From a virus: a stretch of DNA of 64,000 bases. A model generated the notes under the pieces. That model saw nothing but the letters and a program-made list of their open reading frames with translations, made no database searches and had not been told where the DNA came from. The stretch spans positions 33,915 through 97,914 of IMG/VR virus record IMGVR_UViG_3300042090_000890. One strand, given 5' to 3'. Shown here in pieces: positions 6,852 to 55,853 of the stretch. Both the position numbers and the translations under genes were made by a program. Position 1 is the stretch's first letter; each line of letters begins with the position of its first letter.

Positions 6852-6860
6852 CCTAATCTT
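6852..6860 (+). promoter_or_regulatory. CCTAATCTT box, candidate late promoter
   Basis: Exact copy directly after the terminase TAG stop, 38 nt before the next ATG. It shares the 15-nt GATTAGCCTAATCTT with the copy at 11622. A TATAAT also lies downstream at 6868-6873, so a host-type -10 cannot be excluded here. Confidence 0.6.
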
Positions 6861-6898
6861 CAAGGAATATAATGCCTTGAGATTTCAAAGAGGTAAAT

Positions 6899-8533
6899 AT
6901 GCACCAGAATTCAAATGATTGCCCGGACAGTATACTGAACATGATGGTCAGTATGCTTTGCTACCAGGACGGCCAAGTTACCGACAATCCGCACCAGCGT
7001 GCGTTCGATTATCGGCTCCGCCTTGAAAGCATCGGATGTAAGAACCCGTACGGCAACGAAGTCCTGATAGGCCCCGGCCAGTCGTTCTCGCTATTTTCCA
7101 GCGTCATTGCTACCGGGCTGACCGGCAGCTCGATCGTGAACATGGACCCGCAATCGCCGCCGGAGTCGATTTACCGGTTGTCGGTATCATCCGGCACGAC
7201 GAATAATTTCCGCACCGGTCGCACGGTGTCTGATCTCGCAGGTTGCACGGTCACGGTCAACAACAACGCCGTCGCCGTATTCCAATTCACTGGAGCTAAC
7301 TACACGAATAACAACCAGAATTTCTCGGCCAATGCTGCAATCGTAGCCGGTACGACATTGATCGCAACCGGCACGGGCGCGCCAGCTTTCAACGCGTATC
7401 AGATGACAACTGCACCGGCAAATGCTACGGCAGGCGCCGTATACCAAGATGCTCTGAACACCAATCAGCGATATACCGTCGAGCAGACGGTCTCAGGCGG
7501 TACGACCTTGATTGCTTCCGGCCCGACACCGCCCGAATCGACTTTTGCGATCACGTGCAGCCCGGCATCAGCATCCGCAGGCGCGGTTTACCAGCTGAAC
7601 GGCCATCATTACCACGTCACCACCACGATTACAGGCGGTGCGTTGCTTACGGCTACTGGCTACACACAGCCGCCTGCGTCCGGCGTTTTGACGTATGTGT
7701 CCGGTACCGGTGACCCGACGATCACATATTCCTCGTTTACGCTCTCAGGCTCTCTGACACTTTTTTCTGGTACCGGCGATGGAACGATTACGTATTCAGG
7801 ATACGTCCCGGTCGGATTGCTGACTCTCGACAGCGGCGTGGGCGATTCTTTGATCATTTACACGTCTGTCACGGCTGTCGGAAATCAGTACACGTTCACG
7901 GTTAACCCGGCGAATGCTTCCGTTCCGAACATCAGTACGGTGCAGGTCGGCGACATTATGCGCATCAACGGCCAGATGGGTTATGATACTCCGCCTTATG
8001 CGTTTAATCCAATAAATTCAGGCAGTTGGATCATCATCGCTGTCTCCGGAACCACAGTCCAAGCGGTTCGTCCGGCGGGAACAGCGTTCCAAGCCGTCCA
8101 AGAAACACCTCCCGGCCCAACCGTCAACGATGTGATGTTCTACGCGAACGACAAGGTCATGCCCGGTATGATGTTCCAGATTACCGGCACATTCAGCCCA
8201 GTCACCCAGCGCACATACACCGTCCTTGATTCCACTCCGAACTTCATCCAGTTCTGTTCGACGCAGCCGATTCCTAAAGAGGACGGACTGACTTTTGTGC
8301 CAGGCACTGCAACTTTTTATACAGGCGTCAAGAAAATGGTGTATGTTGAGGTTGATCAGCCATGCGCGGCCCAGTTCAATGGACAGGTCGACGTGCTGAA
8401 CATGATCACACCGATCAAGCCAGGCTCAAGAAATTTGAGAGGCTTTTTAACAAAGATGGGCGAAACGTACAGCTGTACGGTCGTCAACACTTCGGTGAAT
8501 CAGGCGCACGTTAAGTTTTTTACAGTCGAGTAA
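6899..8533 (+). CDS. Putative virion structural protein with beta repeats
   Basis: 544 residues between terminase and portal. It is rich in Thr, Ser, Gly and Ala, has few charges and is largely beta in character, as in phage surface or decoration proteins. Residues about 265-330 hold three tandem units built on SGTGDPTITY, SGTGDGTITY and SGVGDSLIIY. An earlier pair of longer units (ANATAGAVYQ and ASASAGAVYQ) is also visible. The ribosome binding site is AGAGG, about 6 nt before the ATG at 6899. A CCTAATCTT box and a TATAAT lie upstream, so the gene starts a transcription unit. A head-fibre or decoration role is plausible but unproven. Confidence 0.6.
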   Translation: MHQNSNDCPDSILNMMVSMLCYQDGQVTDNPHQRAFDYRLRLESIGCKNPYGNEVLIGPGQSFSLFSSVIATGLTGSSIVNMDPQSPPESIYRLSVSSGTTNNFRTGRTVSDLAGCTVTVNNNAVAVFQFTGANYTNNNQNFSANAAIVAGTTLIATGTGAPAFNAYQMTTAPANATAGAVYQDALNTNQRYTVEQTVSGGTTLIASGPTPPESTFAITCSPASASAGAVYQLNGHHYHVTTTITGGALLTATGYTQPPASGVLTYVSGTGDPTITYSSFTLSGSLTLFSGTGDGTITYSGYVPVGLLTLDSGVGDSLIIYTSVTAVGNQYTFTVNPANASVPNISTVQVGDIMRINGQMGYDTPPYAFNPINSGSWIIIAVSGTTVQAVRPAGTAFQAVQETPPGPTVNDVMFYANDKVMPGMMFQITGTFSPVTQRTYTVLDSTPNFIQFCSTQPIPKEDGLTFVPGTATFYTGVKKMVYVEVDQPCAAQFNGQVDVLNMITPIKPGSRNLRGFLTKMGETYSCTVVNTSVNQAHVKFFTVE

Positions 8534-8541
8534 GGTGACGA

Positions 8542-10740
8542 ATGGCCAACGAAGAAGGCAAGAAAAAGCGGTACCAACAGAGACAAGAAATTGTCGCGTT
8601 GGACCCCAACGCTTTGAAGTTACTCAAAGCGGAAGCTGACGCTCGCCAGAAATCCAACGATGAAGAAGAAGTCACTCCGGCGGATACCGGCGTGTTGGGC
8701 GAGATCGTAAAATCGATCAAAGCTCAGAACGCGATGCAGGCGGCCCAACTGGAGCGAATGTCGTTCCAGGTCGACCCGAACGCGAACTACTCCGGCGCTC
8801 TCGGTTTTTACAAGCTCAAGCAGAACTTAACTCCTGATCATATCATCAAACGGATCTGCGGTCCGGGCGGCGACGAACTCGTTAACGAGATTCTCCAAGC
8901 TCGCTCGAATCACATCTCGTCCTTCGGTCGGCCACGTACCGATCGTTTCAGTGTAGGCTTTGAATTCCAAGACATGGACAAGAACGCCAAGCGTTCGGAA
9001 GAAGATCAGCGGAAGATCCAAGAAATGATCGATGCCGCTAAGAAGACCTTCTGGCAATGCGGTCGCGGTACGCTCGAAGGCGAACTCGACCAAGTAAACC
9101 TGTCTCAATTCTTAAAGCTGGTGACCCGCGATGGACTTGGATTCGGACGCCTAGCTACTGAAAGAGTTTGGTGGACCAATCCAAAAACTGGCAAGAAAGA
9201 GCTGTACGCATGGCGCGCAGCCGATGCCGGAACAATGCTCAAGATTCTGCCGCAGAAAGAGCACGATCAATCTCTCCGCCAAGAAGCTATTCGTCAGTTG
9301 CAACAGATCAAAAACAAAAAGATCGACATCGAGAAGTACAAGAAAGATGAGTACCGCTACGTTCAGGTTATCGAAGGTAAACCTATTCAGACATTCACTG
9401 AAGAGGAAATGGTCATCTACAATTTGTATCCGACGACCGGCATCGAATACAACGGTTACCCCCTGACCCCGATCGATCAAGCCCTTAACGCAATCACGAC
9501 TCACATCAACATCACGGTCCATAACAAACTGTACTTTCAGCACGGTCGCGCATCCAAAGGGATGTTGGTATTCCAGTCGGATTCTATGGACGAGGCAGCT
9601 GCCCAGCGCATTCGCCTACAGTTCCATCAGTCTATCAACTCCGTCCAGAACTCGTGGCGCATGCCGGTGTTCGCGATCGGGTCTGAGGACAAACTGACTT
9701 GGGAAGCAATCGACAACTCAGGCCGCGATGCAGAGTTCCAATACCTCATGGACAACAATGCTCGGGTGATCTTGTCGGCGTTCCAGATGTCGCCGGAAGA
9801 ATTGCCGGGTTACGCCCACCTCGCTCGCGGAACGAACACGCAGGCTCTCTCGGAATCTGACAATGAATGGAAGCTCACCGCAGCCCGCGACGTTGGTTTA
9901 CGTCCTCTGCTAAGCGACATTCAAGATTTCTTGAACACGCACATTCTCCCGTTCGTCGACGCGGAACTCGCGAAGACGCACCAGATCGTGTTAACTGGTC
10001 TCGACAAGGATTCTCCGGAAAAAGAGAATACCCGCCTGCAGCAAGATATGGCCGTTCACATGAACTACAACGAAGTCATGGAACAGGTCGAGAAGAACCC
10101 GATCCCGGTCGAACTGGGCGGCGACTTCCCTCTCAATCCTCAGTACCAAGCAGTCGCGGATAAGTACCTCACGGTCGGCCAGATCCTGGAGAATTTCTTC
10201 AAGGTCAAAGGCGCCGCATCCGATCCTCGTTATCAGTACATCCGTGATCCGTTCTGGTTCCAGAACAAACAGCTCATCCTCCAGGAAGCTCAGATCGCGA
10301 TGCAGCAGTCCATGCAAGCTCAACAGATGATGCAACAGCAAGCGCTGGCCGAGCAAGGTATCGCGACCGATGAGAACGGCAACCCCGTTCAGCCCGGTGA
10401 CGATGACGACAAAGGCGGCGGAGATGACTCCGGCGGAGACGATGATTCGGGCGGAGACGACTCCGGCGGCGGAGATCAGCCTCCGGAACAGACATCCAAG
10501 GCGGAGAAAGCGATCGACATCGTGAAAGAAATCACTGCCAAGAACGTGGCCTGGTCGGCGAACAACTACGTCGTCCTCGAAAAGGCCATCCGCAACAATC
10601 ACAACAGAATCTCGCGACAGCTCCTGAAGCGTCACAATGAACTTGTGACGGCCACGATGGATAACTGGAAGCGCCAGTCCGCGAAGGAACTGGCAGCCAT
10701 GGGCAAAGCGCTCAAAGACGGTAAGAAGAAGGGGAGCTGA
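8542..10740 (+). CDS. Portal protein
   Basis: 732 residues. The central region reads as an HK97/SPP1-type portal: TFTEEEMVIYNLYPTTG, YNGYPLTPIDQALNAITTH, then long helical stretches and LSESDNEWKLTAARDVG. The portal dodecamer at one head vertex passes DNA and binds terminase and neck. It lies between the terminase and the MuF-like protein, the standard order. The C-terminus carries a Gln/Met-rich helix and then an Asp/Gly/Ser low-complexity segment (about 10396-10488) of DDDxxGGGDDSGG type before a basic helical tail. The stop overlaps the next start by one base (TGATG). Confidence 0.85.
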   Translation: MANEEGKKKRYQQRQEIVALDPNALKLLKAEADARQKSNDEEEVTPADTGVLGEIVKSIKAQNAMQAAQLERMSFQVDPNANYSGALGFYKLKQNLTPDHIIKRICGPGGDELVNEILQARSNHISSFGRPRTDRFSVGFEFQDMDKNAKRSEEDQRKIQEMIDAAKKTFWQCGRGTLEGELDQVNLSQFLKLVTRDGLGFGRLATERVWWTNPKTGKKELYAWRAADAGTMLKILPQKEHDQSLRQEAIRQLQQIKNKKIDIEKYKKDEYRYVQVIEGKPIQTFTEEEMVIYNLYPTTGIEYNGYPLTPIDQALNAITTHINITVHNKLYFQHGRASKGMLVFQSDSMDEAAAQRIRLQFHQSINSVQNSWRMPVFAIGSEDKLTWEAIDNSGRDAEFQYLMDNNARVILSAFQMSPEELPGYAHLARGTNTQALSESDNEWKLTAARDVGLRPLLSDIQDFLNTHILPFVDAELAKTHQIVLTGLDKDSPEKENTRLQQDMAVHMNYNEVMEQVEKNPIPVELGGDFPLNPQYQAVADKYLTVGQILENFFKVKGAASDPRYQYIRDPFWFQNKQLILQEAQIAMQQSMQAQQMMQQQALAEQGIATDENGNPVQPGDDDDKGGGDDSGGDDDSGGDDSGGGDQPPEQTSKAEKAIDIVKEITAKNVAWSANNYVVLEKAIRNNHNRISRQLLKRHNELVTATMDNWKRQSAKELAAMGKALKDGKKKGS

Positions 10741-11621: not shown

Positions 11622-11630
11622 CCTAATCTT
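11622..11630 (+). promoter_or_regulatory. CCTAATCTT box, candidate late promoter
   Basis: Exact copy directly after the MuF stop codon and 17 nt before the TTG start of the prohead protease. No clear ribosome binding site lies between the box and the start, so this may be a short-leader transcript. Confidence 0.6.
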
Positions 11631-11647
11631 CTAATAGATATACATAC

Positions 11648-13396
11648 TTGGTGGTCACTTTGGGTCTGAAGATTGACGGTATCGCGACATCTGAACACAT
11701 TGATTCGTCCGGTGAATTGCTCATCGTCGAGAATCATGACATCTCCGATCTTGTGTCGGGCAAAGGCGTCATGAATTGGGAGCACTCCAATAAGTCCGAT
11801 GACACGATTGGAGCAATCATCTACGCCAAGAAAATTCTCAAGAAGACCGACTGCGAGAACGACCGCCAGCGAAAATACTGGAATACCGTCAACAAGCCGT
11901 TCGTTTACATCATAGGCGAGCTGTACGATGACGAGGAACATTCAGGTGCGCTTGCCGTCGCCGCCATGATCCGGTACTACGCCAAGAAATCTGAGAATCT
12001 CCTGACAGGCTTCTCCATCGAAGGCGCCACGCTCGAACGGGATGATTATATCCTGAAAGAGTCTGTCGGTCGCCGGGTAGCCGTCACCCTCCGCCCGTGC
12101 AATAAGACTGCAATCGCTGGGTTGCTGGAAGATCCAAAAACGAAAGATATCGCTAAGTCGATCGAGGCAATGATGGCCCGCGTCGATGGCAGCCTCGTCG
12201 AAATCGACTCGGTCATCCTCGACGATATGTTCATGCCGAAGGACCCGATTCTCGACCTACATAAGGCCGTCGAAAGTCTCGCGAAGTCGATCGAAGCGGG
12301 CATGTACAATGTCACTCCGTCGCAGTTGATCGGCCAAGCCGCACTTACCCGCGAGCACATCAGCGGATTCCAGCGGAACCGTGTTAAAGCTGCCGTCCGC
12401 GATTGGGACCGCAAACGTCCTCTCAAGGAAGTTCTGAAGAGCGCTCTACCGGAAGTGTCTGACGATTACATCGGACATTTCGAGAAGTTGGCCGAAGAAT
12501 TGGCACTCAAGAAAAACATGCCATCCACGAAATTAACTCGCGTTGGGGCTAGACATTCGCCAAATCAACATCAAAATGAAGACCAACAGAAGTTGATCGA
12601 AGGCTTGTACTTCGACCCGAAGAGAAAGTTCGGCGGTAAAGATTTTGATCCTGGCCACACCGGCTATCAAACCGCGATCACGAAGCATAAAAATGACGCA
12701 GGCGCGAACGTGTTGGTCAAACAGCCCACGGGCAAATGGGCAGAGAACGCCACTCATTACTACGAGAACGCTCGCGATGTTTTTGGAATGGGCAATCACG
12801 TACCGGTTACGAATTATTTCAAGCCGCCCAAAGGATCTCAGAAATGGGATATGACTACCGATACTACGGATCGTCAGCCTGAAGGCCTGCATCATCAAGC
12901 GATGGAACTTGTCGATAAAGCCAAATCGCCAATGACCATGAACGACAAAGACCTGGCTAAACCGTTGCAAAGAGCATATGATAACGGAGACTTGAACAAA
13001 CTCATGATGATGGATCAGATTCTAGGCGGAGCGTCGGATAGACACCACGGAAACTATCTGATTCATCCTAAAGGCCACGTTATGAACATCGACAACGATC
13101 AGGCTTTTTCTTACAATATACCGGCTCCGACACCGGCGTACATGTATCAGCACATCGATCAGCCGATACACCCGGAAGCGTCAAAATGGATAAAAGGAAT
13201 TGATCCAAAAGCGTTGATCGGGAAGATGGCGGACCAAGGTCGTTCACCGGAAGAAATAAAATCCGCCGCTATGATTCTTAAACTGCATCAGAAATACGCC
13301 GACAAGCCTATGACAGGACGCCAACTGTGGGACACTATAGGCAATCATGCTACGGCAGTTCGTCGTGAAGAGCAGCGCAAGAAGAAGGTAGCATGA
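11648..13396 (+). CDS. Prohead protease fused to a kinase-like domain
   Basis: 582 residues. Residues 1-170 read as a phage prohead protease: VMNWEHS (candidate catalytic His), KPFVYIIGELYDDEEHSGA, then LLTGFSIEGATL (candidate catalytic Ser) and VAVTLRPCN. It would cleave scaffold and capsid during head maturation. Residues about 210-240 repeat a motif of the capsid N-terminus (EAGMYNVTPSQL). Residues about 330-540 contain GANVLVKQ (possible ATP-binding lysine), SDRHHGN (D464-N469) and NIDNDQAF (D482/D484), the catalytic-loop and metal-binding pattern of PI3K/HipA/Fam20-like kinases. The start is TTG at 11648 or GTG at 11651, both without a Shine-Dalgarno sequence. The protease call is good. 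The kinase fold is inferred. Confidence 0.75.
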   Translation: MVVTLGLKIDGIATSEHIDSSGELLIVENHDISDLVSGKGVMNWEHSNKSDDTIGAIIYAKKILKKTDCENDRQRKYWNTVNKPFVYIIGELYDDEEHSGALAVAAMIRYYAKKSENLLTGFSIEGATLERDDYILKESVGRRVAVTLRPCNKTAIAGLLEDPKTKDIAKSIEAMMARVDGSLVEIDSVILDDMFMPKDPILDLHKAVESLAKSIEAGMYNVTPSQLIGQAALTREHISGFQRNRVKAAVRDWDRKRPLKEVLKSALPEVSDDYIGHFEKLAEELALKKNMPSTKLTRVGARHSPNQHQNEDQQKLIEGLYFDPKRKFGGKDFDPGHTGYQTAITKHKNDAGANVLVKQPTGKWAENATHYYENARDVFGMGNHVPVTNYFKPPKGSQKWDMTTDTTDRQPEGLHHQAMELVDKAKSPMTMNDKDLAKPLQRAYDNGDLNKLMMMDQILGGASDRHHGNYLIHPKGHVMNIDNDQAFSYNIPAPTPAYMYQHIDQPIHPEASKWIKGIDPKALIGKMADQGRSPEEIKSAAMILKLHQKYADKPMTGRQLWDTIGNHATAVRREEQRKKKVA

Positions 13397-19900: not shown

Positions 19901-20584
19901 GTAAACAATTCCGAGGCTTCCGAGAAGGAACTTTCGCAGGACCCTAAACTTTGGTCGTTGTACCAGCATCTACTCCAACAAACGAACGGCATTTCGAATG
20001 GTTCGATCGGCATGCATCCGACTACCCCGCACATGGTTTCCTGGTCGCGCGTCGACACTGATCAGCAGACGAAAGGTAAGAACGCATGGGCGATCGAAGA
20101 GTACCAATCTGACTTTGCTCAGAAGTTCCGCCGCAACTTGAAAGCTCTGGCCAGCAAGTTCCCGTCCGGAACGAAGCTGAGCGGCCAGCATGTAACCGCC
20201 GAGGACATGAAAAAGTACGCGAAGACGATCGACAATCACCTTTCGGACTGGACGGAAGCATCCATGCAGGCGGTGATCGACAACGCGAAGGCGCAAGGCG
20301 TCACGCATTTGTACATGCACGGTGCCGAGATGCGCGGGTACATGTCGAACGGCGGGCGCTACAGCCGCGAGTTCTGGGATAATCCGAACACCAAACCGTT
20401 CACGGTTGGGTTCCGGAAGATTTACGGCGAAAATCCTGCAAAATTTGGCTTCAAGGAATGCGACTATACGGATTACCCGAAGCATAACAAGGACATGCTC
20501 AACAATTTGAAGAAAAACAAGCTGTCCACGAAGTGCTGGGTTCTTGAGCTGCAGCCTCCGGCGCCCAAGAAGAAAAAAGCCTAA
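13991..20584 (+). CDS. Giant alpha-solenoid-type virion protein (2197 residues)
   Basis: Largest gene in the window. I chose ATG 13991; GTG 13982 is in frame but has no better ribosome site. The N-terminal ~500 residues carry short helical repeats of the form hP.hp...l..L (HPNLAPHSIEKLYNH, NPRLPQESINGIIKR, HPRADMDVVNEGLK), like leucine-rich-variant or HEAT repeats. Similar units recur throughout, for example HPNVSEEDLGELF. The last ~230 residues contain WSRVDTDQ, WAIEEYQSDF and VIDNAKAQGVTHLYM. This resembles the 'EIQSDW' domain of large polyvalent proteins of mobile elements. No transmembrane segments are evident. It lies among the head genes and is probably an internal or ejected protein. 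Function is unproven. Confidence 0.65.
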   Translation: MNDEKKLAPDVPADTLHAHVERHMALPEESQSDNDNEDFAAEVASHPNLAPHSIEKLYNHVMKPVSANSTTAATGEAEPMSNVIVGNLLRNPNAPQNIKQDFALKTFHPDNPSSDLHEELADSGILNEQQLKGMSEQVLKAGKEPHAYKHLGPNYYMKYFRGRSQQDPNELDEDGKEQHSREMELGEKGLVNSSRHTPETLDQTIDAFSASKHDPHGLIEKLVNNREDLSKDQLNKIHQWYDSNKNEKSNAYNDDYYHRQRIDSLLEHKNVDPALLAKYAVGKRVSTEALKNPRLPQESINGIIKRIKDPNEWDTRNRVESLLENPSISKDQVRALIQKGSNKAIKHPLADEAAVRDYWQKGSKDLDSSRDILQAKNLPPDVLKELVNHKNQEVAVKALNHPRADMDVVNEGLKRRAKTVQDAARLHPLVAEQQVKEGLKSGATSLANVYTDPKFEAQFDKLPKVDQEAIFNKAHEKYQGTNLAELAKKTKERSENVINSKMNLAMDERVPAAIREAHGKDIANMFEDQVPKNQMLVQRTTDVMSKNHPDDNSRLVTAISHLAINGNKDAQRAILNNPGYLSEVQSNLDLKDAEPDFLESVYRKRQENQANNVQLYDRVGHPELFDKSGHTLRRVFEAPNLPSNVFDEIARNGQQMDQIGAGDYFKRYNDLPEDQQNQKYEHILNSGSQKAAISVVRAKAPPASWDRAFNMLTPDNKQRLIKDEVDHVKSHRPDVFHNAVLGMYNDPADADRPGMSRYESYQAKAVSKLDPESPNDRSVLEQLISIPEAQPGHMPDEGLLDNIPEKMYSKPGDDSLIDHAAASGKGPLAYNMLARKMNTLSREAYVGSYESEDKKAAARQKAEDLVTYLHGRVASMPSFSDADTDNPTAENWYSLMTRQKQGYHDDRFMGALKKAGANLDFLADMPGKDGELVKRQALTDNLLSTQKLQEMSQANSVKDILAIGSPKLRQQSLDSWVVQGNHTPEDLEHLANKVDASVLNPESFEHGRRKSMGEEAVNVFNSRINNLIDLYRTKSPDSLTHVINNALQVSRSDDDLTQEDGRRIVKNILNHVNGAAYGSPEEKASTLLSTYMALKKREMAPANMGKQIERAAVEGKDYDTMIKLSDHKMLSEEGISSLMKAAAQPQTLNSRQIAGVSSMLTSNTPPSAVLDTAKAFENKTAQEVAEGKRPSPADRTKLMRNLFGTFSPSESGPEEVQKNEFLVNYMKKQALDPAVSRYANTHLANMSVQLAEAGDEDQGISLWEQLPNQLTDFDGNYPDIQGAIPSKMLNDPRFIEACGSGWKLSSLAINADRLTGANASTLTNRALAAEPYTVDHQQLFRNFENNEFVAPEDSVKLARSMPDDKFNSLTRELGQSMAGNLIYAAHARIRDVDALVKDPNLAAPNAPFMGAEHRNKILTNLDAYATAIKNADVEEETPNLKDKLGKVSEMIGTIHGHLKTIANHMRLQAPDQVDNIEFARDHAAMLTTLSKIATTNLQLDRDDALKVMDMVKEYHSVQQAAGKEPMPEKTYPATKGLVARAENFEEQDWREMFKADPHAIYALSDRATIPTEALNAAEITKIEKSRNKDENRAKTLFVKTSKDWFSKMSKEDVAHHGKDLLHLYIKLKNADEIFHNDYTYAMEEGMKYMGDSMSHKELTDLLQESGASDLRNSLFKTAVENGVGGVESLKAYAKEFHDQIFSGHSDIHDMEASNLKMKLEPITASPYIDEDLAGQVFDMYDRNKGAMHAAAVDLLANTSTPAKSVKKFTDTLLQNHKDGYKDINKRASANLASQIMQHPNVSEEDLGELFALSNEQFPKYFAPSGKFNPALTNPTYGGKLFRAMPLALPESQKMGPKGEGGTVDEGKCLRDINLQHKDYERMKSTMAMIPAEGMAWAEFKRKFPAEEKSLPPSVKAVFTSAQNKPVMPEQFAQAMRSLDDNSKKYHLTYSEWGSGLQRHNPPGRPNLVVQVNNSEASEKELSQDPKLWSLYQHLLQQTNGISNGSIGMHPTTPHMVSWSRVDTDQQTKGKNAWAIEEYQSDFAQKFRRNLKALASKFPSGTKLSGQHVTAEDMKKYAKTIDNHLSDWTEASMQAVIDNAKAQGVTHLYMHGAEMRGYMSNGGRYSREFWDNPNTKPFTVGFRKIYGENPAKFGFKECDYTDYPKHNKDMLNNLKKNKLSTKCWVLELQPPAPKKKKA

Positions 20585-20588
20585 CCTT
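20580..20588 (+). promoter_or_regulatory. CCTAACCTT, one-base variant of the late-promoter box
   Basis: Overlaps the stop codon of the giant gene and lies 7 nt before the ATG at 20596. One mismatch (T to C) from CCTAATCTT. The layout is the same as at 46503, where an exact copy is 6 nt from an ATG. Confidence 0.4.
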
Positions 20589-21093: not shown

Positions 21094-21102
21094 CCTAATC
21101 GT
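21094..21102 (+). promoter_or_regulatory. CCTAATCGT, one-base variant of the late-promoter box
   Basis: Lies 45 nt before the ATG at 21148, directly after the inverted repeat. One mismatch (T to G at position 8). It is the only box not attached to the end of a gene. It would serve the most strongly needed operon, that of the capsid. Confidence 0.4.
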
Positions 21103-21147: not shown

Positions 21148-21639
21148 ATGAGTGCTTTCACCGCCCAGGCAAAAGTCAGAGAACTGACGCAGCGACTTCA
21201 GTTGCTGATGCCGACTGCTACGATTACGCAGGCGCTTGACGCCAATGGTTATCCGGCAATCAACGTGGCCTACAACACGGCTGTTGCCCAGACCAAAGTT
21301 CTGCAAGATCCCGCCCAGTCCGCAACCGATCCGATGATCGGCGGCGTTCCCGGTCCGGCATATCGCGTGAACGGCCTCGGTCTTGCTCAGACTGCTTACA
21401 GCCCGCACGTCATCGAATTGCTGCAAGACAGCGATCAGACCGACGCGGACAGTCAGTCGTTGAAAGCTCGATTGCATCAAGCTCTCGGAAAGATGGGACT
21501 CAAGATTTTCATCAGTCAAGCTACGCAAGCTACGATTTTGGCGGCTCCAATCGCCTCTTTCGATGCTACTTTCGCAGCTGCGACTCCGTTGATCTCGATT
21601 CCGTCCGACGAAATCAATCCTCTTATCCAGAGTTCGTAA
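21148..21639 (+). CDS. Putative capsid-associated protein
   Basis: 163 residues with a strong ribosome binding site (AGGAGG about 6 nt before the ATG). It is the first gene of the scaffold-capsid operon. Rich in Ala, Gln and Thr with few charges. The middle is Pro/Gly-rich (DPMIGGVPGPAYRVNGLG). The end contains QATQATILAAPIASFDATFAAATPL, which I give only as a composition note. No family recognised. Position and composition suggest a decoration protein or an additional virion protein made in high amounts. Confidence 0.55.
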   Translation: MSAFTAQAKVRELTQRLQLLMPTATITQALDANGYPAINVAYNTAVAQTKVLQDPAQSATDPMIGGVPGPAYRVNGLGLAQTAYSPHVIELLQDSDQTDADSQSLKARLHQALGKMGLKIFISQATQATILAAPIASFDATFAAATPLISIPSDEINPLIQSS

Positions 21640-32769: not shown

Positions 32770-32778
32770 CCTAATCTT
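32770..32778 (+). promoter_or_regulatory. CCTAATCTT box, candidate late promoter
   Basis: Exact copy, 10 nt after the ClpP stop and 32 nt before the ATG at 32811. It marks the switch from the protease cassette to the neck and virion genes. Confidence 0.65.
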
Positions 32779-38505: not shown

Positions 38506-38514
38506 CCTAATCTT
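38506..38514 (+). promoter_or_regulatory. CCTAATCTT box, candidate late promoter
   Basis: Exact copy, directly after the stop at 38504 and 23 nt before the ATG at 38538, which has AGGAG at 38526-38530. Confidence 0.65.
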
Positions 38515-46502: not shown

Positions 46503-46511
46503 CCTAATCTT
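46503..46511 (+). promoter_or_regulatory. CCTAATCTT box, candidate late promoter, 6 nt from an ATG
   Basis: Exact copy directly after the TAG stop. The ATG at 46518 follows after only TTCGGC. If this is a -10 element, transcription starts at or near the A of the ATG. Confidence 0.6.
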
Positions 46512-46517
46512 TTCGGC

Positions 46518-48275
46518 ATGACCAACGACAATTCCGACTCGCAATTGAAAGGAATTACTTCAGGCGGCGCGAACGGCCTTTCTCAGCACCAATCCGAAGA
46601 TACTCTAGGCGGATCAACCATTTCCGGTGCTGGCTCTCGGAACCCGAACGACCAAATCGATCGACATCGTTTATTCCCCGGTGGAATGCTTTCGTCTCCT
46701 TGGCAAGCCTTCGTCAGAAATGGCTTCCGGCGACCAGTAGCGAAAGCAGAATACAGCACAGATCAGGCTCCTAGCAAGGCGCCCGGAGGCGCGCCGAAGA
46801 TGCAAGGTTTGGGCACCGTAAAGATCAAGGAAACGCCGAAGCCGCAAGGTTATGGCAAGGTCACCGTGAAAGAGCCGCCGAAGCCGCAAGGTTTCGGTCG
46901 CGTGATCCAAAAAGCTCTGCCGAAAGGGTTCAAAGTCGGCATTTCGCCGAAAGACGCCAAAGCGCCGGAAAATCCGGAAATTCATCACGAAGAAACGCAC
47001 GTGGCCGGTGTTGAGATTCCACACACGCTGAGAGAACACCTCAAGGCCGGAAATGTCATTCCGTACGATCACCAACTCCGAGATGAAGCTGCCGAATTTG
47101 TGACCAACGTATGGCGTAAGAATCCACACGACGGCAAGCGCATGTCATCGAGATTACTTGGAGTTACTGAAGACGACGCTCCCGCGAAGCCTGGCAAGGC
47201 GACTGTCAAAGACGAGATGTCAATCAAAAAAGACGGCGAGGCTGGCACTGCCAAGCCGTTGGCACCGCGTTTTCCTTCGAAAGAGCAGGGCGACGCTATC
47301 CAACGTGAGCTATCCGGCGGCCTTCCAAATAAAGAAGGTTGGGCCAACGTTCGACAGGAACTCGGTGCGCTTGTCGGCCTTAACAAAGATGAGAAGCCGC
47401 CTGCGCCGCCGAAGCCAAAACTGGCACCGCCGCCTGACAGCCCGCATGCTCAGCGTCCTAACCAGCGCCAGCGTGTGAAAGACGTCAAGGCAAATCTGAT
47501 GGAACAGATCGCTGCTGATCCGTCCAAATCGAAAGTCTCGCTCAGCACGACCAATTCGAAGCTCGCGAAAGACGGTATCGCATCGTTCAATCTTGTACCG
47601 ATCGAGACCTGCCCCGGCGCCGGTTCATGCGCGAAGTATTGCTATGCAGACACTGGATCATTCCTTCGCTTTTGGAAGACGACAATGCCGCCGCGAGTCG
47701 CAAACTGGCTTGCCTCGCAGAAGCCAGATTTCGTCGAGAAGATGAATGCCATGTTCGGCGACGTAAAAAAGAAAGGCAAGATCAAAGCAATCCGTGTTCA
47801 CGACTCAGGCGACTTCTACTCTCCTGACTACATAAAGAAATGGACTGAAATTGCTCGATCGAATCCGGAGTTGATGTTCTACGCGTATACGAAGAGCCAT
47901 CACCCAAATCTGCGCCAACATCTCAATGAACTTGAGAAGCTGCCAAACTTCAACGTCGTACAATCTATGGGTTCTAAATACGACCATCTTATCGATCCAT
48001 CGAAGCCGCACGCAGTTGTATTTCCTGATGAAGCCTCAATGAAGAAAGCTGGCTACGCCGACGCAATGGAATCAGACTTGGCCGCAGCGAATAAGAACAA
48101 TCGCAAAGTCGGTTTGTATATCCATGGCCAATATGACAAGTCGTACCCCGGTCTCGAAGAACATCTGAAAGGAAATCCTCGTATTATGCAGGAAGTTATG
48201 GAAGCTCTTAAAGGCGGCCCGATCAAGAAAACGGAGTCAAAAGGTCTTCGTAGGTTGATCAAGAGTAAAGCCTAA
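46518..48275 (+). CDS. GP88-like Cys-cluster domain on a disordered N-terminus
   Basis: 585 residues, no Shine-Dalgarno before the ATG. The first ~300 residues are low complexity, with three 14-residue units of GxGxVxxKExPKPQ type (46804-46920) and Pro/Lys-rich stretches. Residues about 330-560 match the mycobacteriophage gp88-like family: ETCPGAGSCAKYCYADTG (C365, C371, C375), IRVHDSGDFYSPDYIKKW and MFYAYTKSHHP. The Cys pattern and barrel-like order recall radical-SAM enzymes and suggest an iron-sulphur cluster. Family function is unknown. It is surrounded by virion genes, so it may be packaged. Confidence 0.65.
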   Translation: MTNDNSDSQLKGITSGGANGLSQHQSEDTLGGSTISGAGSRNPNDQIDRHRLFPGGMLSSPWQAFVRNGFRRPVAKAEYSTDQAPSKAPGGAPKMQGLGTVKIKETPKPQGYGKVTVKEPPKPQGFGRVIQKALPKGFKVGISPKDAKAPENPEIHHEETHVAGVEIPHTLREHLKAGNVIPYDHQLRDEAAEFVTNVWRKNPHDGKRMSSRLLGVTEDDAPAKPGKATVKDEMSIKKDGEAGTAKPLAPRFPSKEQGDAIQRELSGGLPNKEGWANVRQELGALVGLNKDEKPPAPPKPKLAPPPDSPHAQRPNQRQRVKDVKANLMEQIAADPSKSKVSLSTTNSKLAKDGIASFNLVPIETCPGAGSCAKYCYADTGSFLRFWKTTMPPRVANWLASQKPDFVEKMNAMFGDVKKKGKIKAIRVHDSGDFYSPDYIKKWTEIARSNPELMFYAYTKSHHPNLRQHLNELEKLPNFNVVQSMGSKYDHLIDPSKPHAVVFPDEASMKKAGYADAMESDLAAANKNNRKVGLYIHGQYDKSYPGLEEHLKGNPRIMQEVMEALKGGPIKKTESKGLRRLIKSKA

Positions 48276-48279
48276 TCTG
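48271..48279 (+). promoter_or_regulatory. CCTAATCTG, one-base variant of the late-promoter box
   Basis: Overlaps the stop codon of the GP88-like gene and lies 36 nt before the GTG at 48316. Last base differs from the consensus. Confidence 0.4.
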
Positions 48280-49572: not shown

Positions 49573-49573
49573 C

Positions 49574-49852
49574 ATGAACAAGCCGAAAGAAGAGAAGAAA
49601 GAGTTCACGATCGTTGAGCCGAAGTCTGACAAGCCTGCGGTGCAGGTCTCTCGGCAGCGTCCTCAGTCGAATGCACGCCCACAGGCACCATCGGTACCGA
49701 TCACGTTTGACGCCTGGTGGTTACGTACTCAGAACAAATATAAGTTCAAGCCGGAACTGAAAAAGGCCGTTCAAAGGCACTTTGAAGCCAGAGGGTTCAC
49801 GGACTACACAAAGTTCGACGCTGGCTTGAGAGATTTCGGATTTAGAACCTAA
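49574..49852 (+). CDS. Small basic hypothetical protein
   Basis: 92 residues, one base after the previous stop. The first half is disordered (Lys, Pro, Gln); the second is compact and helical (FDAWWLRTQNKYKFKPELKK, then HFEARGFTDYTKFD). The stop codon lies inside a CCTAATCTT box, so it ends a transcription unit and precedes the sheath gene. No family recognised. Confidence 0.65.
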   Translation: MNKPKEEKKEFTIVEPKSDKPAVQVSRQRPQSNARPQAPSVPITFDAWWLRTQNKYKFKPELKKAVQRHFEARGFTDYTKFDAGLRDFGFRT

Positions 49853-49856
49853 TCTT
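49848..49856 (+). promoter_or_regulatory. CCTAATCTT box, candidate late promoter of the tail genes
   Basis: Exact copy overlapping the TAA stop of the previous gene, 25 nt before the sheath ATG, which has GGAGG at 49869-49873. Confidence 0.7.
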
Positions 49857-49881
49857 TGTCAGTAGTTTGGAGGTATTTTAA

Positions 49882-52656: not shown

Positions 52657-52668
52657 TAGGAGAACGAT

Positions 52669-53145
52669 ATGGCAGTTTCAAGAATTTTTACAGGTGCGAG
52701 AGCCAAAGTCCAGATTGGAAACAATCTTGTGGGCCTGTTCTCGCAATGTACGTGGAGCATTCGCCAAGGTAAAGACCCGGCGTTCATCCTCGGTCGATAC
52801 AACCCCGGTGAAATCGTTCCGACTACGCAAGAAGCCGTTCAGATGTCTCTGTCTGGCTACCGTGTGATCGGGGCCGGTCCGTATGCGGTTGCTAACGCAA
52901 CGCTTCTCAAGAATTTGTTGCTCGAAGACGACTTCACCGTAGCTGTGATCGATCGTCAGACGAACTCGACTATCTTTCTCGCTTCAGGCTGCCGTGTTCA
53001 AGGCTGGTCTTCCGGCGCTGCCGCTCGCGGCATCTCGGACGTCCGGATTGACGTGATCGGTATCAGAGGCGAAGACGAATACGGTATCGCACAAGGTGGA
53101 GACGACGACACTAACTCCGCAGCGAATATCACCGACGGCACCTAA
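52669..53145 (+). CDS. Tail tube protein
   Basis: 158 residues with AGGAG before the ATG. Size and place directly after the sheath are typical. Sequence is a compact beta fold: ARAKVQIGNNLVGLFSQCTW, PTTQEAVQMSLSGYRVIG, NATLLKNLLLEDDFTVAVID. It forms the inner tube through which DNA passes. Its stop overlaps the stop of the convergent minus-strand regulator by 3 nt, and no terminator is visible between them. Confidence 0.8.
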   Translation: MAVSRIFTGARAKVQIGNNLVGLFSQCTWSIRQGKDPAFILGRYNPGEIVPTTQEAVQMSLSGYRVIGAGPYAVANATLLKNLLLEDDFTVAVIDRQTNSTIFLASGCRVQGWSSGAAARGISDVRIDVIGIRGEDEYGIAQGGDDDTNSAANITDGT

Positions 53146-53474
53146 ATCATACTGGCGCCTAAAAAGTCCCGCAATTCTTTCTCGAATGTTGAGCTGGTTG
53201 TCGTTCCGATAACTGGCTCTGTCATATAACCGAAAGCCCGGTACACTTCCAATATCGAATGATCGCCCGTCACCGGCAGGACTCCGCCGTTCGGCCCGCG
53301 TATGACCTTGACTATTCCGGCTTTGTTCAGAGCGGAAACGATCTGATGAAGGAAGTTCGCACTGTTGCCTAGCTTCGCAGCCATATCTTCGACGCGACGC
53401 GGAGCAACGCCTTCAGCTTCCTTCAGGAAACTGATAAGATCCACGGCTAAGCGGACCCTTTCGGGCATCTTCAT
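53142..53474 (-). CDS. Rrf2-like winged-helix regulator
   Basis: 110 residues. Reads as an Rrf2-type winged helix: VRLAVDLISFLKEAEG, RRVEDMAAKLGNSANFLHQIV (recognition helices) and LNKAGIVKVIRGPNGGV (wing, with the typical rGp.GG). No cluster-binding cysteines, so it would not sense iron-sulphur status. AGGG precedes the ATG. It is the last gene of the minus-strand operon and converges on the tail tube gene. Possibly controls the promoters with the shared TAGTC box. That link is a guess. Confidence 0.7.
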   Translation of the reverse strand: MKMPERVRLAVDLISFLKEAEGVAPRRVEDMAAKLGNSANFLHQIVSALNKAGIVKVIRGPNGGVLPVTGDHSILEVYRAFGYMTEPVIGTTTSSTFEKELRDFLGASMI

Positions 53475-53475
53475 T

Positions 53476-53925
53476 TTATCCCTGTTCTGGTCCGTATGCA
53501 GGCGCGCCGAAGTTCTTTTCGAAGAATCCTTTGACCTTCGACAGAAGAGACGGCCTATACGGTTGCGCGATTGCCTCGTTCAAATCAGCGACCATGTCGA
53601 GAGCGATGTTTTCTTGGATACCTTCCAGGTCGACCAACACTGAGCCTGGCTGGAGTGCCGAACCGAGCGTTTCGTTAGGTCCGTATTGCAGAAAATGCAT
53701 GTTGATCGCGTAGTCCAGACGCTTCTTGGACATGTACGGCGAGTCTTTGCGGACACGTCGGCGGAAGTTCCGTTTCATAACCGCGTAGTCGGCGGAAGCC
53801 ATGAAGACGTGCTGCGGGTAAGCCCGCTTCGTCTCGTCGGAAACTGCTCCGAATTTTTTCAGAAAGTCTTCCGGCGCCTTATTCAAGTCCGTTTTACGGA
53901 GTTTTAGAACTGTCAGCCTGGTCAT
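53476..53925 (-). CDS. Hypothetical protein
   Basis: 149 residues from the ATG at 53925, fixed by AAGGAG at 53933-53938; the longer frame to 54051 lies inside the previous gene. Basic helical middle (AVMKRNFRRRVRKDSPYMS) and a C-terminal helix with KVKGFFEKNFGAP. Overlaps the upstream gene by 32 nt. No family recognised. Confidence 0.7.
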   Translation of the reverse strand: MTRLTVLKLRKTDLNKAPEDFLKKFGAVSDETKRAYPQHVFMASADYAVMKRNFRRRVRKDSPYMSKKRLDYAINMHFLQYGPNETLGSALQPGSVLVDLEGIQENIALDMVADLNEAIAQPYRPSLLSKVKGFFEKNFGAPAYGPEQG

Positions 53926-54499
53926 TTTCGTCTCCTTTAGTTGACTCTTCCGGTGTACTATACAACCAGGATTTGCAATCGGCAAGTGTTTTCTGCAAGG
54001 CCTCTTTGTCGTTGACCTTTCTGTTAAGGCCAGACGGATGCGGCAGTTCAAAACATGGCATACCGATCTTGCCGAGAGCCCAGACAGCCATCTTGCCGAG
54101 CGCGATCACCTTCGGCATAGGCAAGGATTTGAGCTTTTCGATGTGAGCTTCCATCTCTTCTTTCGGCATAGGCGTGAAGGCCTCTTCGAGACGCCCGGCG
54201 GCCTGCATCTTTGCCATCATCACTTTGGTAGCGTCCGGCTGGCCTATATTCATTTCGAGCGCTTTGAGTAGCAGTCCGAGGTTGAAGTCCCGTACGTTGA
54301 CGTCTTTCTTTTTGACTTCCGACGCTTTCTTAGTCACTTCGTCGGTCACATTTACGTACCCGCACTGGGCAGGCAATAGTCCAAGCGTTGCGACCCATTC
54401 TCGAATTGTCTTGTGCGACTTCGTGCCGACGAACGGTTCCACCGTGGTATTGTGCGGCGATGGGTTGCAGCCGACGAATATGACTTTCAAATCGCTCAC
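53894..54499 (-). CDS. Uracil-DNA glycosylase superfamily protein
   Basis: 201 residues from GTG 54499, preferred because it overlaps the previous stop as GTGA and has AGGTGAGG upstream; ATG 54523 would have AAGGA touching the codon. Motif A is VGCNPSPHNT. VIALGKMAVWALG is the central strand, and LPHPSGLNR is motif B, close to the Mug/SMUG signature. Between them is a helical insertion. These enzymes remove uracil or damaged bases. The acidic tail is disordered. Substrate cannot be deduced. Confidence 0.65.
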   Translation of the reverse strand: MSDLKVIFVGCNPSPHNTTVEPFVGTKSHKTIREWVATLGLLPAQCGYVNVTDEVTKKASEVKKKDVNVRDFNLGLLLKALEMNIGQPDATKVMMAKMQAAGRLEEAFTPMPKEEMEAHIEKLKSLPMPKVIALGKMAVWALGKIGMPCFELPHPSGLNRKVNDKEALQKTLADCKSWLYSTPEESTKGDENDQADSSKTP

Positions 54500-54744
54500 G
54501 AATTCCTCACCTTGATCAGCCATTCCTTCAGATCGAACAAGTTCCGGATTTTGACGGCATGCCTATTCAATCTCTTGTCACCATTTATCATGGAAGCGAC
54601 TTCTAAGTCAAACGCCTTGCACTGGCGGATCATCATGGCCTTCGTGTCTGGATAAGCCTTCGGATCATCGTGCGTTTTACGACAATGGGCGATCACCGAA
54701 ATCTTGTATTCTATCTCAAAGATCGTCGAGTGGAGTTGAGTCAT
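54496..54744 (-). CDS. Hypothetical small protein
   Basis: 82 residues, GAGG 6 nt before the ATG. Helical, with a basic middle (IAHCRKTHDDPKAYPDTKAM) and an amphipathic end (NLFDLKEWLIKV). It overlaps the upstream gene by 29 nt and the glycosylase gene by 4 nt. No family recognised. Confidence 0.65.
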   Translation of the reverse strand: MTQLHSTIFEIEYKISVIAHCRKTHDDPKAYPDTKAMMIRQCKAFDLEVASMINGDKRLNRHAVKIRNLFDLKEWLIKVRNS

Positions 54745-54931
54745 CCGGTTCCTCTTTCACCTTCTTGAGTTCGAACTGCGGCTCGATGCCCTGCGATTTG
54801 AGAAACAGTGCCAGTCCGGAAACGATGAGATATGCCTGGGCCTCCTTCGGGTCGTCCGGGAGATGTTTCGTCTCATGGAAGGTTCGTATGCCTCCGTCGA
54901 CGATCTTGCGCAGCTCGGTGTGGGTGATCAC
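54716..54931 (-). CDS. Hypothetical small protein
   Basis: 71 residues if the GTG at 54931 is used; it has AGGTGAG 7 nt upstream, the same arrangement as the glycosylase gene. The alternative GTG at 54943 overlaps the previous stop by 8 nt without a ribosome site. Contains DDPKEAQAYLIVSGLALFLKS and an acidic Pro-containing tail. No family recognised. Confidence 0.55.
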   Translation of the reverse strand: MITHTELRKIVDGGIRTFHETKHLPDDPKEAQAYLIVSGLALFLKSQGIEPQFELKKVKEEPDDSTPLDDL

Positions 54932-54935
54932 GAAT

Positions 54936-55340
54936 TTACTCACCTGACGCACCGCAGTACAAGTATTGGCCTGGGTCTTCGTCCAGCGACGGTCGACACG
55001 ACCGGCAGTAGAGCCCGCGTTCCGGCGGCAAGTCGGCGTCACACTCGCGGCAGTGCAGCTTGCGCGGAATAATCGATTTGTGGAAGGTGCCCGATTCGAT
55101 GAGTCGCTTGGCTTCAGCAGCCGTTACCAGCTTGACCGGCGGCAGCTCCACCTTCGGTGCATCCGGCGGAATCTCGACTCGTTTGAAATGGATCGACTCG
55201 ATCGGTTCTGACAGCTTCTGGGCCTTCTGGCCGAAGCCGCCCGGAAGAGCGTCGATAGTGACTACCCGCTCAACCACCTCGTCGTAGTGCTCCGGTATCG
55301 GCTCGATTACCGGCGCCGCAAACATGGATCGGTCGCTCAT
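54936..55340 (-). CDS. Zinc-ribbon protein preceded by a structured leader
   Basis: 134 residues with GGAGG before the ATG. The first 85 residues are Pro/Glu/Val-rich; a helix AAEAKRLIESG follows. Then comes a zinc ribbon with CREC and CRSC, 13 residues apart, and a final C near the end. Zinc ribbons of this sort bind nucleic acid or protein. The 118-nt gap upstream holds the candidate structured RNA at 55358-55453, which ends 7 nt before the ribosome site. Its translation could be controlled by that structure. Confidence 0.65.
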   Translation of the reverse strand: MSDRSMFAAPVIEPIPEHYDEVVERVVTIDALPGGFGQKAQKLSEPIESIHFKRVEIPPDAPKVELPPVKLVTAAEAKRLIESGTFHKSIIPRKLHCRECDADLPPERGLYCRSCRPSLDEDPGQYLYCGASGE

Positions 55341-55357
55341 AAAACCTCCAAAAGAAA

Positions 55358-55453
55358 GGCGGGTGGTGGGTTCATCCCACGATCAGCTATTACGCTGGAC
55401 TAGCCGCGATGAGGGGGATCATCGCAGCCGCCATAGATTCTGGCACACCCGCC
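55358..55453 (-). ncRNA. Candidate structured RNA in an operon leader
   Basis: An 8-bp closing stem (GGCGGGTG at 55358-55365 with CACCCGCC at 55446-55453) encloses four hairpins: 55366-55380 (GTGGG/CCCAC), 55384-55397 (CAGC/GCTG), 55406-55425 (GCGATGA/TCATCGC) and 55430-55444 (GCCA/TGGC). On the minus strand GGCU/AGUC can extend the third arm through a G-U pair. On the plus strand this would be a C-A mismatch, which supports a minus-strand RNA. It starts 5 nt after one gene and ends 7 nt before the GGAGG of the next. It may be a riboswitch-like leader, a processed RNA or an attenuator. Not a tRNA, because arm sizes do not fit. Confidence 0.55.
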
Positions 55454-55458
55454 AAAAA

Positions 55459-55761
55459 TTAAGCAGCTTTAACATCCTTCTTGAGCTTGACCGTTACTCG
55501 CGGAAACTCGATTTTTTTGATCAAGTTGTTCTTCGCGACAAAGACAGGATCGAGGACCGTGCAGAGCTGATCTGCGTCGACCGTTCGAAACTGTTGTTGC
55601 ATGGCAACGGTAGCCTCATACTCGTCGGTCGTAAAAGACCCTCTTTCGATGATAGCATCTTTGATCGCATCTGCCTCTGCTTCAAGGCGCTTGATTTCGG
55701 CCTTAATTGCGAGGTAATGAGCCAAAGCGGCGTTGTCGAGTACGGTATTTTTCTTTTTCAT
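55459..55761 (-). CDS. Small coiled-coil hypothetical protein
   Basis: 100 residues, first gene of the minus-strand operon, with AGGAGA before the ATG and a sigma-70-like promoter at 55781-55809. Residues 10-42 are charged helix (YLAIKAEIKRLEAEADAIKD), the rest is short helix and strand ending in a basic tail (RVTVKLKKDVKAA). No family recognised. The structured RNA candidate follows its stop. Confidence 0.7.
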   Translation of the reverse strand: MKKKNTVLDNAALAHYLAIKAEIKRLEAEADAIKDAIIERGSFTTDEYEATVAMQQQFRTVDADQLCTVLDPVFVAKNNLIKKIEFPRVTVKLKKDVKAA

Positions 55762-55780
55762 GGTATCTCCTATTCACTCA

Positions 55781-55809
55781 AGTATCTCATAGTCCACCAA
55801 AACAGTCAA
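55781..55809 (-). promoter_or_regulatory. Sigma-70-type promoter of the minus-strand operon
   Basis: On the minus strand, TTGACT (55809-55804), 17-nt spacer, GATACT (55786-55781). The spacer shares GTGGACTAT with the promoter at 25077-25105, at the same place relative to both boxes. Confidence 0.7.
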
Positions 55810-55844
55810 ATAATTCGAAAACGCGTCTCTATACGGGATTTTAT

Positions 55845-55853
55845 CCTAATCTT
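55845..55853 (+). promoter_or_regulatory. CCTAATCTT box, candidate late promoter of the fibre genes
   Basis: Exact copy in the divergent gap 55762-55919, on the opposite strand to the promoter at 55781. It is 66 nt before the ATG at 55920, the longest leader of the set, and is not attached to a plus-strand stop codon. Confidence 0.65.

Follow-up and report, generated by a model that had tools for sequence, protein, structure and literature searches.

The 9-nt box CCTAATCTT is very probably the on-switch of the late genes of this phage, judged from its distribution in the window, i.e., the whole stretch of 64,000 nucleotides that was analyzed, and in related phage records. The best explanation is that it represents a single-box late promoter, which would be read by the host RNA polymerase core together with the phage's own sigma factor, and that the RNA starts 15 nt after the first C of the box. 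We give this reading a probability of about 0.83. A late promoter had been proposed before as the simplest interpretation by a sequence-only reading of the same DNA, and the strand, the position and the conservation of the box in relatives support this view.

Seven exact copies of CCTAATCTT were found in the window, all of them on the plus strand and at exactly the positions that had been reported. Only 0.35 copies were expected for both strands, and none of 100 shuffled sequences reached seven. The whole record of 97,914 bases contains seven forward and no reverse copies, and, thus, there are none in the 33.9 kb upstream of the window, and the claim that no exact copy lies on the minus strand holds across the full 97.9 kb. 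The reversed control word did not occur in the whole record. Three one-base variants had also been described (20580, 21094 and 48271). They are indeed present at gene junctions, but they are only three of six in total (19943+, 20580+, 20881-, 21094+, 33632+ and 48271+), and the remaining three, which include the minus-strand site, sit within called genes. The 13 window sites with at most one mismatch did not exceed the chance level (9.4 sites expected, and 13 reached in 15 of 100 shuffles), and therefore this count was given no weight. In the seven near records introduced below, own copies included, the three junction variants were located 5-100 nt before starts in three of five (CCTAACCTT), two of two (CCTAATCGT) and four of six cases (CCTAATCTG). 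The positions of all features are summarized in Table 1.

Table 1. Boxes, predicted RNA starts and associated genes in the window.
Feature	Sequence	Position	Strand	Predicted RNA start	Remarks
sigma70-family protein, proposed box specificity factor		1054..2139	+		361 aa; regions 2-3, only beginning of region 4
box	CCTAATCTT	6852..6860	+	6867	heads gene 6899-8533
box	CCTAATCTT	11622..11630	+	11637	heads head-protease-like gene 11651-13396
variant box	CCTAACCTT	20580..20588	+	20595	start 1 base 5' of ATG 20596
variant box	CCTAATCGT	21094..21102	+	21109	heads 21148-21639
box	CCTAATCTT	32770..32778	+	32785	heads gene 32811-33212; 10/11 orthologs
box	CCTAATCTT	38506..38514	+	38521	heads gene 38538-38939; 10/11 orthologs
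box	CCTAATCTT	46503..46511	+	46518	immediately 3' of TAG stop
predicted leaderless late gene		46518..48275	+		585 aa, GP88 domain (PF17338)
variant box	CCTAATCTG	48271..48279	+	48286	overlaps stop codon; heads 48316-49572
box	CCTAATCTT	49848..49856	+	49863	overlaps TAA stop of 49574-49852; heads tail sheath gene 49882-52656
box	CCTAATCTT	55845..55853	+	55860	3' of minus-strand gene island; heads gene 55920-56603

All copies had been said to precede head, neck, tail or fibre genes. Profile searches back this for the head-protease-like gene at 11651, the sheath gene at 49882 and the GP88-domain gene at 46518, while they gave no informative family for the other genes directly behind boxes. The gene 6899-8533 matches no known family, and it is placed between the terminase and the portal genes. 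A YAATCTT box precedes its orthologs in 11 of 14 records according to an automatic table, and one of the three misses (relative G006) is a gene-start miscall, as the box is present at 120152 together with the same start sequence. For the gene called at 11651-13396, the exact start codon of which is uncertain, the box was found before six of 12 orthologs. The variant at 20580 is replaced by an exact box at the same place in G006 (105774), and behind the gene headed by the variant at 21094 lie 21671-22516 and then the major capsid gene (22519-23910). The predicted RNA start at 46518 is the A of an ATG, and, therefore, this mRNA would be leaderless; the similarity of the protein to its G006 counterpart starts at this ATG. 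Several ortholog sets lack the box in some records, e.g., it was present before seven of 14 sheath orthologs, and before eight of ten orthologs of 55920-56603. The genes were called with a simple script and some starts are wrong, e.g., the start at 46518 was called at 46800, and, thus, all box-before-start counts carry this error.

The analysis was extended to relatives, which were reached with the major capsid protein, because gene 6899 as query in viral contigs and 44256-46502 as query in phages gave no match. The near set comprised seven records including the own one (31-54% GC), and the distant set eight records, among them Myxococcus phage Mx1, resulting in 15 records in all. In the near records, 85 of 97 exact copies were located 5-100 nt before a called gene start, and 92 were on the strand of the capsid gene and five on the other strand; in six records, nine of 94 copies were within called genes. 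The possibility that the box is equally frequent within genes or on the other strand is thus not borne out, neither in the full record nor in the relatives. When all 27 one-base variants were pooled, only 34 of 256 copies preceded starts at this distance; for the variant CCTAATCTA the count was 11 of 12. An unprompted search for 9-mers enriched before starts ranked the box first in five of the seven near records and second in G001 (tied, ten copies), and did not list it in the fragment G005. In the distant records the box is shortened to YAATCTT, and 142 of 426 copies were 5-100 nt before a called start; for each of the 20 one-base changes this fraction was only 2-8%. One record, G008, had no strand bias for YAATCTT (8 versus 8 upstream copies). 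Among 72 orthologous pairs of near sites, the bases at -15/-14 agreed in 95% of the cases, the flanks in 29% and 32%. In 45 further independent sigma-bearing contigs, YAATCTT was before starts in 64 of 299 cases, compared to 206 of 5169 for the 20 pooled changes. These contigs lacked the initiator peak described below, with 14 of 56 sites showing the step at the predicted position, and three starts fell within the distance gap, at 13-14 nt; many of their boxes may be chance matches. This set replaces one of 50 loci, which still included near copies of the studied records (71 of 333, also without initiator peak). Literature searches for AATCTT or TAATCTT in connection with phage promoters yielded nothing relevant among the matches listed, as judged by title.

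The candidate for the specificity factor is encoded in the same record. The assignment of the protein to sigma70 regions 2 to 3 is supported by sequence and fold alike. It matched phrog_351 (E 6e-6), as did 12 of the 15 orthologs in total, and a profile of the sigmas matched RpoD with E 1e-10, the alignment ending at RpoD residues 564-572. It stayed under the Pfam cut-off (Sigma70_r2, E 0.14), with weak Pfam matches in six of the 15 orthologs, and the structural Z score was about 12, a value that helical bundles can reach without kinship. Orthologs of 330-363 aa are present in all 15 records, and the protein was found in 75 viral loci plus Mx1. In all 15 records the protein stops short of region 4.2, which in sigma70 normally recognizes the -35 box, and ends 4-11 residues after a KVLxLK motif; the C-terminal ends were also compiled for 54 of 64 further loci, ten being omitted, mostly for incomplete or repeated matches. 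Separate sigma-4 domains were searched in 13 records, and one exceeded the cut-off (G004), with weak matches in some others; none was found in the own record. The open reading frame just 3' of the sigma gene (2148-2459) was considered as a separate region-4 gene, but matched no family in profile searches, and a likeness to GroES was unsupported (best chaperonin E 0.5).

The pairing of sigma and box is based on co-occurrence and matching anatomy, and, thus, a different phage protein or a second sigma might read the box, while the truncated sigma would act on a different set of genes. Mx1 has further strongly enriched upstream words, AGATCCGCT and TAGATCAACG, which could represent another promoter class. 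We regard this as improbable, because the orthologs accompany the box in every one of the 15 records, the absence of region 4.2 fits the absence of a -35 element, and a search of 13 records for the RNA polymerase beta' subunit gave no homolog (control 14 of 14). A search for single-subunit (T7-type) RNA polymerases gave no match in its controls. The stretch in region 3.0 differs between the clades, i.e., it is LPPKDKR-like where CC precedes the core and FYPxDKR/DRR where CC is missing.

The earlier claim that there is no shared -35 box was confirmed quantitatively with the relatives. The mean information in the -35 zone was at the level of the sampling bias, both for 79 near sites (0.027 versus 0.027) and for 142 distant sites (0.016 versus 0.015). 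Neither form of a host sigma70 promoter, i.e., TATAAT with a TTGACA -35 box or with a TGN extension, was seen in the aligned late boxes. Of the non-leaderless sites, 46 of 75 near ones and 67 of 123 distant ones had a pyrimidine-purine step at the predicted start, compared to 26 and 32, respectively, at the best other position 10-25 nt after the first C. At the exact boxes in the window the step was present in only four of seven cases. The box should thus be an extended -10 element (-15 to -7), with the RNA start 15 nt after its first C. These features also bear on the possibility that the box is an operator for a phage activator that recruits the host sigma70 holoenzyme. Sigma70-like TGNTATAAT sites are present at some early-type genes of this phage, which makes it probable that the host holoenzyme acts during one phase or another. 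An operator is nevertheless improbable, because there is no second strong element, the predicted start being the feature that stands out most downstream, and because the box is at the place of a -10 element, 6 nt before the putative start, and is not palindromic.

The distances between box and gene start were analyzed for 225 sites in the 15 records. No start was found at 0-4 nt, 29 were at 5-9 nt, of which 16 were exactly 6 nt after the box, four were at 10 nt, and none at 11-14 nt. Starts at 5-9 nt had an SD-like sequence in only four of 29 cases, i.e., they are mostly leaderless, while those at 15 nt or more mostly have a Shine-Dalgarno sequence (171 of 189 at 16 nt or more). In Mx1, the distance from a box to the deposited start is exactly 6 nt in three cases (36563, 75289 and 121405). 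An RNA start 5-10 nt after the box, as had been suggested, would agree with both the initiator peak and the leaderless genes. That the box acts in the RNA, as a processing site, translation enhancer or antitermination signal, is highly improbable: almost all copies lie on the coding strand near starts, but the sharp peak at 6 nt and the distances that are empty in the 15 records fit a transcript starting downstream of the box, the other distances vary widely, and the window gave no Rfam match above threshold.

In the single-box reading, CCTAATCTT would be the near-clade form of a promoter with the core YAATCTT at about -13 to -7; in the clade of the window, CC at -15/-14 and, in most cases, an A at -17 precede this core. 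The host core with the phage sigma would recognize and melt this extended -10 element independently of a -35 element, and a part of the late mRNAs would be leaderless. The sigma operon of this record lies behind a host-type TGGTATAAT site, which suggests a sequence of events in which the host sigma acts first, followed by the early genes together with the phage sigma, then by the late box and finally by the virion genes. The box with its strand, position and conservation, the lack of a -35 element, the distance pattern and the truncated sigma of each of the 15 records are seen in the sequences; an RNA start at this place, its late timing and the reading of the box by this sigma are inferred. 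The word ACTAATCTT was considered as a box before the helicase-sigma operon (record 33448, window -466) and rejected, because it is within a gene and is not kept there in relatives; therefore, the sigma does not appear to be under the control of its own box.

The T4-type late promoters of Straboviridae (gp55/gp33/gp45) likewise have a single -10-type box without -35 conservation and a phage sigma, and the lack of the DNA-reading domain of region 4 is also a T4-like trait. The T4 late consensus TATAAATA (TATA box) differs from YAATCTT/CCTAATCTT, and gp55 has 185 aa compared to 330-363 aa of the sigmas in the 15 records. A profile of the 15 sigmas reached a probability of 0.2 in hhalign with the single gp55 sequence, which is a weak target. 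A gp45-type sliding clamp was found in none of 13 phage records, which include fragments and in which a divergent clamp could escape, while the T4 control matched; a bacterial-type clamp was over the cut-off in none of 13, with one weak match. PMC2988020 describes gp55 and gp33 together as a split sigma without -35 sequence conservation at the promoters, and gp33 as devoid of discernible similarity to sigma proteins.

In the SPO1/K-type phages (Herelleviridae) the major capsid protein is distantly related (about 25% identity to SPO1-like phages), and a phage sigma is used for late genes, as proposed here. SPO1 late sites have two boxes, CGTTAGA(N17-19)GATATT, according to PMC3601020, in contrast to the missing -35-type element and the different -10 word in this phage. 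For phage K, a -10 but no -35 element is reported at late sites (PMC11598898). In phiEco32 and 7-11, short words before structural genes were predicted from sequence to be read by phage sigmas, which are described as distantly related to the sigmaA family (PMC4331800); the core of 7-11 is TGATGT instead of YAATCTT. Mx1 shares a similar gene order around the sigma gene, a sigma with 31% identity (WNM70309.1), YAATCTT before capsid-strand genes and the leaderless spacing, but the CC extension is not the rule (one CCT among the commonest forms). The text of its genome paper describes no promoters (PMC10720576).

Taken together, the results define a putative late promoter of Mx1-like phages exactly, name a candidate for its sigma and predict the RNA starts at the level of single bases. 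The phage K group is related, and the authors of a phage K study call the late promoters there poorly understood (PMC11598898). The predicted leaderless late mRNAs offer another point for testing. A sigma that ends before region 4.2, together with promoters without a -35 box, allows one to ask which contacts suffice for promoter choice, and, as the clades with and without CC differ in the region 3.0 stretch, a specificity swap suggests itself. Tentatively, and at slightly less than even odds, this lineage may run its late genes with a sigma lacking region 4.2 on one strict 7-base -10 word, with no recognizable gp33 or clamp and with leaderless late mRNAs as a permanent class, and would thus be a second, separately built T4-like solution. 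If true, this would be a natural sigma in which the contacts of domains 2 and 3 can suffice for specificity.

The sequence-only reading had claimed seven exact copies of the box CCTAATCTT in the window, and all of them were found, on the plus strand only. By chance 0.35 exact copies would be expected in the window (both strands), and seven were reached in none of 100 shuffles. In the full source record (97,914 bases, with the window at 33915-97914) the exact box occurs seven times forward and not once in reverse, and a reversed control word is absent. The first 34 kb lack the exact box; the genes there (22 scanned among about 41 called) include those for a primase, a UvsX-like recombinase, a DNA polymerase, SbcC, a DnaB-like helicase and GroEL. 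The three one-base variants reported earlier indeed lie at gene junctions, but the window holds six variants, a count that does not by itself exceed chance. A 748-aa protein of the virion region (window 44256-46502) has a NUDIX-type domain at its start.

With the capsid protein as query 27 viral loci were found, as well as the Myxococcus phage Mx1 (52% identity). The exact box divides the 27 records into two groups. Six records with capsids at least 67% identical have 3 to 28 exact boxes each, with few exceptions on the capsid strand. The remaining 21 have 0 to 3, which is no higher than the reversed control word (0 to 5). Fifteen records were studied, i.e., 13 virus records read in stretches, Mx1 and the source record; seven are near, including the source record, and eight are distant. 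The near set covers 31-54% GC, and, thus, the box was kept while the base composition changed.

Gene starts were called with our own script, and a box was counted as preceding a start at 5-100 nt upstream. This applied to 85 of the 97 exact boxes in the seven near records, and 92 of the 97 are on the capsid strand. Two of the rare boxes opposite to it, G003 99375 and G004 10719 (both in relatives), lie about 20 nt and about 54 nt before called starts. Overlap with called genes was checked in six records, where 85 of 94 boxes fell outside such genes. The box was also the commonest of the 1,260 permutations of its nine letters, with 95 copies versus a permutation mean of 7.9 (six records, overlaps counted twice). 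Unprompted 9-mer enrichment before starts ranked it first in five of seven near records and second, tied in count, in G001; for the fragment G005 it was not listed. All 27 one-base variants together preceded starts in 34 of 256 cases. Last-base variants did so often (CCTAATCTA 11/12, CCTAATCTG 4/6), as did two rare forms (CCTAACCTT 3/5, CCTAATCGT 2/2).

In most distant records the upstream enrichment yielded words of the (G/C)CAATCTT or TAATCTT type. The top words of Mx1 differ; AGATCCGCT and TAGATCAACG, strongly enriched before its genes, may represent a different class of promoters or a repeat. In the eight distant records 142 of 426 YAATCTT copies lie 5-100 nt before starts, versus only 2-8% for each of its 20 one-base changes. 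Summed over these records, 123 of the 142 are on the capsid strand; the distant record G008 shows no strand bias (8 vs 8). In addition, 45 further sigma-bearing contigs were analyzed, whose 25-mer overlap was at most 5% with the studied records and no more than about 5% with one another. Here the upstream fraction was 64/299, versus 206/5169 for all 20 changes together (1-12% individually); at least one upstream copy was present in 36 of the 45 contigs. Because the enrichment holds in both sets, the core YAATCTT has been kept across the lineage; the near clade is marked by CC before it and an A two bases ahead of the CC.

The claim that no -35 box is shared was borne out: the information content of the -35 zone is at the level of sampling noise, both in the near set (0.027 bits, 0.027 expected, 79 sites) and in the distant set (0.016 bits, 0.015 expected, 142 sites). 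In 72 orthologous near promoter pairs the -15/-14 bases agree in 95%, the flanks in 29% and 32%.

When leaderless cases are left out, a pyrimidine-purine step is most frequent 15 nt downstream of the first C (46/75 near and 67/123 distant sites), and at the other positions from 10 to 25 it reaches at most 26 and 32. Position 9 reaches 37 and 59, because the T before it is fixed, and in the distant set counts of 44 and 46 occur at two positions ahead of the core. The distance from box to start was split. Of 225 sites 29 fell at 5-9 nt, with 16 of these at exactly 6 nt, and four at 10 nt; distances of 0-4 and 11-14 nt did not occur, and the remainder were at 15 nt or more. SD-like sequences were common at distances from 16 nt upward (171 of 189 sites) and at 10-15 nt (6 of 7), but were seen at only 4 of 29 sites at 5-9 nt. 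Eight one-base variant words (259 sites) had a different pattern, with 6 at 0-4, 2 at 5-9 and 16 at 10-15 nt. Step peak and split distances agree on a predicted RNA start about 6 nt after the box; the split is expected, since such an RNA would have either the start codon at its 5' end or room for an SD. Window gene 46518 would be of the leaderless type, and protein similarity to the relative G006 begins right at its ATG. In Mx1 three deposited start codons are exactly at the predicted position. Counted from that start, the box would occupy -15 to -7, the register of an extended -10 element. Some observations speak against this RNA start: only four of the seven exact window boxes have the step, and the 45 further contigs contain three starts at 13-14 nt and show no initiator peak (14/56 at the predicted position).

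The candidate reader is the 361-aa protein encoded at window 1054-2139 (+). It hits phrog_351, a family of phage sigma factors (E 6e-6), to which 12 of the 15 orthologs are matched. A 15-ortholog profile matched RpoD (E 1e-10) up to residue 564-572, which we take, from the region limits, to be the first part of region 4. Pfam matches were weak (window protein E 0.14; six of 15 orthologs, best E 9e-4). For the predicted structure (pLDDT 76.6, pTM 0.61) the matches listed were nearly all sigma factors, with Z values that can arise in helical bundles, and residues 166-243 fit SigE domain 2 (1.5 A over 74 residues). All 15 orthologs end 4-11 residues past KVLxLK, the motif opening region 4. Of 54 further ORFs, several of them near copies, read among 64 not already studied, 46 end 4-21 residues past the pattern match and eight have visibly similar tails. 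Region 4.2 of sigma reads the -35 box, and this region is missing. Searches for separate sigma-4 domains in 13 records gave one hit over cut-off, weak hits in some and none in the source record, and such domains are not conserved. The anatomy of promoter and sigma is shown by the sequences. A beta' homolog was found in 0 of 13 records (control 14/14), and, therefore, transcription probably uses the polymerase core of the host.

Near-clade tails comprise 5-11 residues past the last motif (e.g., GEIYGIFE), versus four in the eight distant orthologs, and possibly bind a protein. Region 3.0, which is expected to contact -15/-14, is LPPKDKR-like in the near and FYPxDKR/DRR in the distant clade; its correlation with the CC is weak, because it is a single contrast between two clades. 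Directly after the sigma gene lies a gene of about 100 aa (window 2148-2459) with relatives in kin. A likeness to GroES noted by eye had no profile support; GroEL is encoded in the record.

T4 late promotion is similar in its single box and missing -35 (PMC2988020), but the consensus differs and the present sigma is longer. Similarity to gp55 was undetectable, and clamp searches gave no gp45-type protein and no bacterial type over cut-off. The system appears to work like T4 late promotion, yet by sequence it is no member. In the accessible parts of the respective papers, SPO1 late sites are two-box (PMC3601020) and phage 7-11 sites TGATGT-type (PMC4331800), both unlike the present box, phage K late sites are reported to have a -10 and no -35 (PMC11598898), and the Mx1 genome paper does not mention promoters (PMC10720576). 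Among the entries listed by searches of open-licence papers, none was seen to describe YAATCTT as a promoter in phages.

The helicase-sigma operon starts behind TGGTATAAT at record 31438 and lacks a conserved late box, which fits an early or middle supply of sigma by the host holoenzyme. Both G006 and the source record also show enrichment of GTATAAT upstream of starts.

Coordinates of minus-strand gene islands and early-type sites
Feature	Position	Strand	Location
Minus-strand gene island	window 23969-25059	-	inside plus-strand virion region, own gene calls
Minus-strand gene island	window 53142-55761	-	inside plus-strand virion region; ends just before box 55845
Divergent pair of TGNTATAAT-type sites	record 31393 and 31438 (window -2521 and -2476)		between leftward early genes and rightward helicase-sigma operon

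Taken together, host core and phage sigma would read a single extended -10 word, from which late transcripts would start, some of them leaderless. That this sigma reads the box, that the transcripts are late and that RNA starts at the predicted position is inferred from the sequences. The late-promoter reading of the box is supported, and it now covers a lineage rather than a single phage.
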